DNA of 40,785 bases. It comes from an archaeon. GTDB lineage: Archaea > Thermoproteota > Thermoprotei > Thermofilales > JAPDKD01. Below the pieces are notes generated by a model. That model saw nothing but the letters and a program-made list of their open reading frames with translations. It searched no databases and was not told where the DNA came from. The position numbers were made by a program, and so were the translations under genes. The stretch is taken from contig JAPDKD010000034.1 in assembly GCA_029258735.1 (NCBI GenBank), positions 1 to 40,785 of the forward strand, given 5' to 3'. Below, piece after piece: positions 36,484 to 39,313 of this stretch (positions are counted from its first letter, which is position 1; each line of letters begins with the position of its first letter).

Positions 36484-36530
36484 AGGCATACACCATGATA
36501 GATAAAGAGCGTCAGAACGGGGTTGTGTCG

Positions 36531-36704
36531 TCACGCTTTCTCAGTCCCCGAAACGTCATCATCCCAAGTAATTTCCGGAATTAAGTCTGAAAGTGCCTCT
36601 CTTATTATTTCGCTTAGAGACTTATTCTTAGCTATAGCTATTCTCTTAAGCTGCTCGTATACTTCATCTTCTACCCAAAAAGTTATAACTTTGCTCTTGC
36701 CCAC
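36531..36704 (-). CDS. Ribbon-helix-helix (CopG-like) DNA-binding protein
   Basis: Protein of 57 residues starting at GTG 36704: GKSKVITFWVEDEVYEQLKR is the strand and first helix, KSLSEIIREALSDLI the second helix of an RHH fold. GGTGAT at 36710-36715, overlapping the HD-gene stop, is well placed for GTG 36704. The longer GTG 36713 start would begin within that site. Such proteins bind DNA as dimers and act as repressors or antitoxins; no toxin is evident. It is coupled to the HD hydrolase upstream. Confidence 0.7.
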   Translation of the reverse strand: MGKSKVITFWVEDEVYEQLKRIAIAKNKSLSEIIREALSDLIPEITWDDDVSGTEKA

Positions 36705-36713
36705 TGCTATCAC

Positions 36714-38581: not shown

Positions 38582-38780
38582 AGCTAGCTTTAATCCTTTT
38601 ACCTAAGAATTTATTTCGCCATTAACCGGGGATACAGAGTATTCACAGAAATCTGATACTTTTTTTCTATGCTCCTAAATTTAAATTAAAGCTATCAGAC
38701 TTGAAAAAGATAGCAGAAATATTATTCTAATTTTAATATGCATCTAATGGATAGTTGTAACATTTTCTAAGAAAACGTAG

Positions 38781-38790
38781 AATTAATAAA
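38781..38790 (+). promoter_or_regulatory. TATA-like element for the C/D box sRNA
   Basis: AATTAATAAA is centred about 27 bases before the C box at 38814, the distance expected between an archaeal TATA box and a start site right at the sRNA 5' end. Confidence 0.5.
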
Positions 38791-38811
38791 CAAGGTTGTT
38801 TTCGAAAGATT

Positions 38812-38866
38812 GGATGATGAAGCGACGGTCTCTTGAGTAATGAAGATTCTTTTCGCAACTGACGTT
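38812..38866 (+). ncRNA. C/D box sRNA (2'-O-methylation guide), probably double guide to 23S rRNA
   Basis: The boxes are C ATGATGA (38814-38820), a 12-base guide, D' TTGA (38833-38836), a 3-base linker, C' ATGAAGA (38840-38846), a 12-base guide and D CTGA (38859-38862). The 12/3/12 spacing is exactly that of archaeal C/D sRNAs, which assemble with L7Ae, Nop5 and fibrillarin. The D' guide (AGCGACGGUCUC) can pair over about ten bases with AGACCGUCGU, a very conserved 23S segment. The D guide (UUCUUUUCGCAA) can pair with GYGAAAAGAA, also in 23S rRNA domain I. Targets are from memory of conserved rRNA. A TATA-like box precedes it and a run of five T (38865-38869) follows. Confidence 0.8.
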
Positions 38867-39020
38867 TTTAAATGATACATGTATAATATATCTGATTTTA
38901 GTCATTAGTTACCTGACATTTTACGAGATAATTATGAATAAAAGTTAAATATATAATGAATTTTAATTGAAACTTATGAATAATATATAACCTTTTTTAA
39001 TATGAAAGATAATCATTATT

Positions 39021-39097
39021 GGGCGCTCTGAGGGGGATGATCCTGCCCCGCCCCATTAAGAAGAATATCTTCTATCTTCTTTTTTAAGAAGATAGAA
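39021..39097 (+). other. GC-rich stem plus two overlapping hairpins (candidate structured RNA leader)
   Basis: In a very AT-rich context, 39021-39054 is strongly GC-rich, with GGGCG (39021-39025) able to pair CGCCC (39049-39053). Two further hairpins follow: AGAAGA/TCTTCT (39059-39064 with 39068-39073) and a perfect 12-pair stem TTCTATCTTCTT/AAGAAGATAGAA (39070-39081 with 39086-39097, loop TTTT). They share bases 39070-39073, so they exclude each other. A TATA-like box at 38981-38990 would start an RNA just before this element. The function is unknown. Confidence 0.5.
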
Positions 39098-39127
39098 AAA
39101 TGGGCTGCGGAAATTGACACTGAAGAG

Positions 39128-39313
39128 TTGAAAAAGCTTGGAGAATATGAGGTTACAGGAGATTCAATTATATGTCCCTACATTGACCCTTACATTGAAG
39201 GAGGAAAAGTAGTAAAAATAGTAAAACACAAAGGAAAATATATGATTACGGCAGGAATATACGATCAAGGTGGGTATACAGAGGAATATTATATTGCAAT
39301 ATTATTTTTATGA
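39128..39313 (+). CDS. Short orphan ORF, possibly the tail of a decayed gene
   Basis: A frame of 61 residues begins at TTG 39128, but the frame is open back to 39041 (stop TGA at 39038) and the upstream codons read naturally (KWAAEIDTEELKKLGEYEVT), with no ATG or GTG. The product would be a small beta-rich protein (GGKVVKIVKHKGKYMITAGI). I do not recognise it. It may be a small gene with a poor start, or the 3' remnant of a larger gene whose front is lost. The structured element at 39021-39097 overlaps the open upstream part. Confidence 0.35.
   Translation: MKKLGEYEVTGDSIICPYIDPYIEGGKVVKIVKHKGKYMITAGIYDQGGYTEEYYIAILFL

Follow-up and report, generated by a model that had tools for sequence, protein, structure and literature searches.

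The 40.8-kb window considered here, the whole stretch of DNA that was analysed and part of a 1.41-Mb, 139-contig archaeal MAG (G000:C5), carries at 38812-38864 on the plus strand what sequence comparison indicates is a genuine, ordinary archaeal box C/D sRNA gene, conserved in its Thermofilales-like order. We suggest that this is very probably a double-guide RNA directing 2'-O-methylation of 23S rRNA at the equivalent of E. coli 2590 from its D' guide and, most likely, of G2056 from its D guide. It would add to a known class an order-wide sRNA whose guides both point to the edges of the peptidyl-transferase centre. One is directed to a site with predicted methylation in other archaea and probable methylation in yeast; the second is directed to helix 73. 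The features are collected in Table 1.

Table 1. Features of the box C/D sRNA locus and of a second box C/D sRNA in the window.
Feature	Position	Strand	Basis or remarks
Box C/D sRNA gene (approximate mature RNA)	38812..38864	+	Conserved block in same-order genomes; k-turn covariation
TATA-like element TTAATAAA, candidate archaeal promoter	38783..38790	+	Sequence
Box C, ATGATGA	38814..38820	+	Sequence; AUGA core invariant in 15 orthologues
D' guide AGCGACGGTCTC	38821..38832	+	10 bp with own 23S AGACCGUCGC; predicted target E. coli 2590
Box D', TTGA	38833..38836	+	Sequence; orthologue alignment
Spacer GTA, between box D' and box C'		+	Sequence
Box C', ATGAAGA	38840..38846	+	Sequence; orthologue alignment
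D guide TTCTTTTCGCAA	38847..38858	+	GCGAGAAGA(C), E. coli G2056, is the target best supported in 23S; domain I, E. coli ~500, is the alternative
Box D, CTGA	38859..38862	+	Sequence; orthologue alignment; k-turn covariation
T-run after box D, candidate terminator	38865..38869	+	Sequence only
Second box C/D sRNA	36512-36562	-	C ATGATGA, D' guide CGTTTCGGGGA, D' CTGA, C' GTGACGA, D guide CACAACCCCGTT, D CTGA

The gene is intergenic, with the end of an aldo/keto reductase gene (38581) on one side and an opposite-strand V4R-domain gene on the other, and no open reading frame of at least 50 amino acids overlaps it. Boxes C, D', C' and D occur in order, with guides of about 12 nt and a short C'/D' loop, and the 12/3/12 spacing of the original prediction is exact. 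Its description of the architecture as perfect was too strong in wording, however, as D' (TTGA) and C' (ATGAAGA) are degenerate forms, which is usual for internal boxes. A strict C/D'/C'/D pattern matched twice in the window, here and on the minus strand at 36562, against 0.017 matches per simulated window. The T-run expected right after box D is there. So is the TATA-like element, some 24-31 bases upstream of box C; by itself it is weak, though many orthologues carry TTTTTAA- or TTTATA-type elements about 28-34 nt upstream of box C.

When 201 bases (38700-38900) were used as a BLAST query, relatives aligned only across about 50 bases, roughly 112-165 of the query (38811-38864); for the best of them, with E-values down to 9.7e-15, the aligned part was about 109-172 of the query. 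Because the flanks do not align, selection appears to act on the RNA. A sequence-only model built from 15 orthologues and run on 81 genomes of the class with a cut-off of E<1e-10 matched 19 of them, namely 18 of the same order (the source genome included) and one of another family (G027). Among genome contigs, an exact 35-base pattern gave zero matches, and a looser one retrieved six named relatives, all of them Thermoprotei or Thermofilum MAGs, which puts the order at or near Thermofilales.

Among the 15 orthologues, the GA of box C and the GA of box D are invariant, and the pairs around them change together. The base preceding the three-base bulge pairs with the one that follows box D, as G-C in 11 and A-U in four, and nucleotide 6 of box C and nucleotide 1 of box D form G-C in 12 and C-G in three. 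In two of those three (G017 and G025, with box C AUGAGC and box D GCGA) the U.U pair has also become G-C. Covariation of the C/D k-turn was 0.415 as against 0.150 in shuffled alignments (0 of 500 reached it) and at most 0.26 in slid structures, with the caution that relatedness inflates such counts. The k-turn, with its sheared GA.AG pairs and the pairs flanking them, is maintained by compensatory change. Conservation confined to the RNA, these compensatory changes and the presence of fibrillarin and Nop genes in the genome all bear out the proposed C/D sRNA identity. In one orthologue (L071, G020:C11:503731-503771) the D' guide is intact and box D is of the compensated GCGA type, but the D guide is decayed or retargeted (AACCTTCAGCGA).

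In an Rfam search, the sRNA had no match above any gathering score. A relaxed search gave full-length sub-threshold matches through the boxes, to sR5, sR23 and sR3 (RF01304, RF01138 and RF01133), at 16.6-21.1 bits where the gathering scores are 40-45; the guides differ, and we rejected these families as assignments on the ground that only the boxes match. It is true that the guide matches are weak when taken one by one, as would be expected if the element were a chance resemblance or a non-RNA feature such as a 3' UTR or a decayed repeat. Such an origin is nevertheless extremely improbable, given conservation confined to the RNA between variable flanks, the compensatory changes and pattern counts far above simulation.

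The D' guide was originally predicted to act on the first C of AGACCGUCG in 23S rRNA. A covariance model detected no 23S rRNA in the source genome, but BLAST with a relative's 23S recovered its 3' 670 bases (G000:C52, L048), which contain UUUAGACCGUCGCGAGAC. The D' guide forms 10 uninterrupted pairs with this fragment, position -5 included, and the fifth base from D' lies opposite the first C of ACC, which aligns with E. coli position 2590. The complementarity of at least eight bases to rRNA of the same genome on which the original prediction was to be judged is thereby found, and its D' target is upheld. We also scored every 23S site in each genome against that genome's own guide, with 120 column-permuted guides as the control. 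Over the 12 genomes with a 23S sequence of their own, E. coli 2590 was the top D' site (mean 9.3, runner-up 6.3), a result matched by none of the 120 permuted guides. In four genomes (G003, G011, G013 and G015) the D'-adjacent end of the guide is altered and eight pairs remain. Guide complementarity supports E. coli 2590 in helix 93, the first C of AGACCGUCG, as the predicted methylation site of the D' guide.

The same position may recur in other systems. We take yeast Um2921 to be the equivalent of E. coli U2552. By numbering offset, E. coli 2590 would then be yeast Cm2959, and the site is probably methylated in yeast. Yeast 25S Cm2959 is guided by snR73 (PMC5199042), a eukaryotic snoRNA that we compare with our sRNA by target position. 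The suggestion of eukaryotic methylation in the D' target region as well holds to the extent that this offset argument does. Among archaea, Dennis et al. 2015 (PMC4644070) describe sRNAs of Pyrobaculum calidifontis (sR30) and Ignicoccus hospitalis (sR124/sR127) that resemble ours in box order, spacing and double guide. There, alignment position C2864 is the predicted target of the D' guide of sR30 and of sR124/127, and E. coli C2606 is alignment position 2880. If no gap falls between 2590 and 2606, E. coli 2590 would be alignment position 2864, and our D' target would coincide with theirs by that paper's offset. The second guides diverge: the D guide of sR30 is directed to C2880 (E. coli 2606; PMC4644070), whereas the D guide of our sRNA points to helix 73 (2056).

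For the D guide, the best site over the 11 genomes that have both the guide and their own 23S was GCGAGAAGAC, GC[G]AGAAGAC, at E. coli 2054-2063 in domain V (helix 73), with G2056 as the predicted target. E. coli 2056 ranked first with a mean of 9.8, against 7.6 for the next site, and 1 of 120 permuted guides reached this value. The guide exists in two forms, with C or T at -7. C-7 guides pair with domain V in Watson-Crick fashion for 9-10 pairs and lose the domain I site. T-7 guides, which include the window's own and make up 11 of the 15 aligned orthologues, keep pairing at this position in domain V by G.U only, and a domain I site, where -4 forms U.G, fits them equally well. One Thermofilum-like genus has the C-7 form in seven genomes, and outgroup genera beyond the order (G030, G033, G042, G044 and G045) have it too, so that pairing with helix 73 is the property held in common. 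The G042 RNA has its other guide directed to E. coli 2080 with eight pairs, 24 bases from the 2056 site, as expected for a linked double guide. The D duplex is shortened in two genomes, G001, where T at the 2058 equivalent faces T-7 of the guide, and G019, where C replaces A at 2062. The 23S rRNA of G001 (G001:C130; L030, L082) is split by large intron-like insertions; it has GGCGATAAGAC where relatives carry GGCGAGAAGAC, with U instead of G at the E. coli 2058 equivalent.

The organism's own 23S fragment begins downstream of both candidate D sites, 2056 and ~500, and the best 23S match of the window's D guide was equalled by 240 of 1000 shuffled guides. For this organism the D target is inferred from its relatives and is most likely E. 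coli G2056, the bracketed base of GC[G]AGAAGAC, at the inner end of helix 73. The original prediction had instead placed the D target in 23S domain I (GGUGAAAAGAG, E. coli ~500). That this site is used, alone or besides domain V, has several points in its favour: T-7 guides pair there as well as at 2056 (11.5 vs 10.5 in G016, and mean 9.5 vs 9.5 over three T-7 genomes), the window's guide reaches 9.0 at this site in the 23S of a relative, and one guide with two targets has a precedent in Table 3 of PMC4644070. The site fails, however, in every C-7 species, in whose genomes domain V pairing is Watson-Crick throughout, and G-4 of the guide is invariant despite the U opposite it in domain I. We therefore consider domain I an unlikely target and its original choice probably wrong, given that the best conserved site in relatives is GCGAGAAGAC, even though the window's T-7 guide fits both about equally. 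Another candidate in domain I, E. coli 476 (GCUGAAAAGAAC), scored weaker still (8.5) and was rejected.

Under the preferred reading, with targets at 2590 and 2056, the RNA would fold via a C/D k-turn and a C'/D' k-loop and bind L7Ae, Nop5 and fibrillarin, and the resulting RNP would direct 2'-O-methylation of 23S by the N-plus-five rule. The source genome encodes fibrillarin (2.1e-101) and Nop (7.9e-77) in adjoining genes on G000:C9, and the enzyme is thus present in the genome. The D' and D targets lie ~530 nt apart, and both border the central loop of the peptidyl-transferase centre. Because they are close in secondary structure despite that distance, a single RNP could also keep the strands of helix 73 and helix 93 near each other while domain V folds. 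PMC4644070 proposes an rRNA-chaperone role for some archaeal sRNAs with distant targets that are close in secondary structure, and the target pair described here makes that role testable in cultivated Thermofilum.

The same geometry raises the question of whether the D arm methylates at all, or pairs with helix 73 solely as a folding chaperone or placeholder. Yeast snR190, itself a C/D RNA, likewise carries an element antisense to helix 73 of domain V (PMC8536666); its box A pairs within H73 near 25S G2395, where no methylation was found (PMC8536666; PMC5199042), and our two targets resemble the chaperone candidates in PMC4644070. However, boxes C and D are intact or compensated, and in the species tested the D duplex is contiguous through -5, as catalysis needs. 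We accordingly regard a D arm that does not methylate as quite improbable. The comparison with snR190 is an analogy only, as snR190 is non-methylating at helix 73 and its second element pairs with domain I (PMC8536666). By that analogy, the sRNA might tether the helix 73 and helix 93 strands and help domain V to close at its root at high temperature, as an archaeal functional counterpart of snR190 that also methylates 2590; we offer this as a speculation that is unlikely to hold in full.

Each half of the sRNA can be traced separately. A pattern search of 398 genomes of the phylum found the D' half in 29, some of which do not belong to the class, and the D half in 20, all within the class; reversed-pattern controls were nearly empty for both. 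In genomes of family f14 (L072-L080), unrelated D guides are combined with the D' module (C box, CGACGGTCTC, D'), and the two such D partners that were checked had no convincing 23S target. Conversely, genus g26, G030 and G033 carry the D guide with other D' partners. Exchange of guides among archaeal sRNAs has been described (PMC4644070), and the sequences here show guide modules being swapped, as each guide is reused on its own with different partners in related genera.

The minus-strand match to the strict pattern is a second box C/D sRNA (Table 1), which extends into the 3' end of a minus-strand ribbon-helix-helix gene (36531-36713). BLAST found no relatives of it in 15 other genomes. Its D' guide forms 11 bp with the organism's own 23S at the equivalent of E. 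coli 2774 (equalled in 20 of 5000 shuffles), and its D guide about 10 bp, one of them G.U, at the equivalent of E. coli 2829 (122 of 5000). Elsewhere in the window, a 14-pair inverted repeat with a T-rich tail (39068-39099) is terminator-like on the minus strand and lies just upstream of a short open reading frame (39128-39313).
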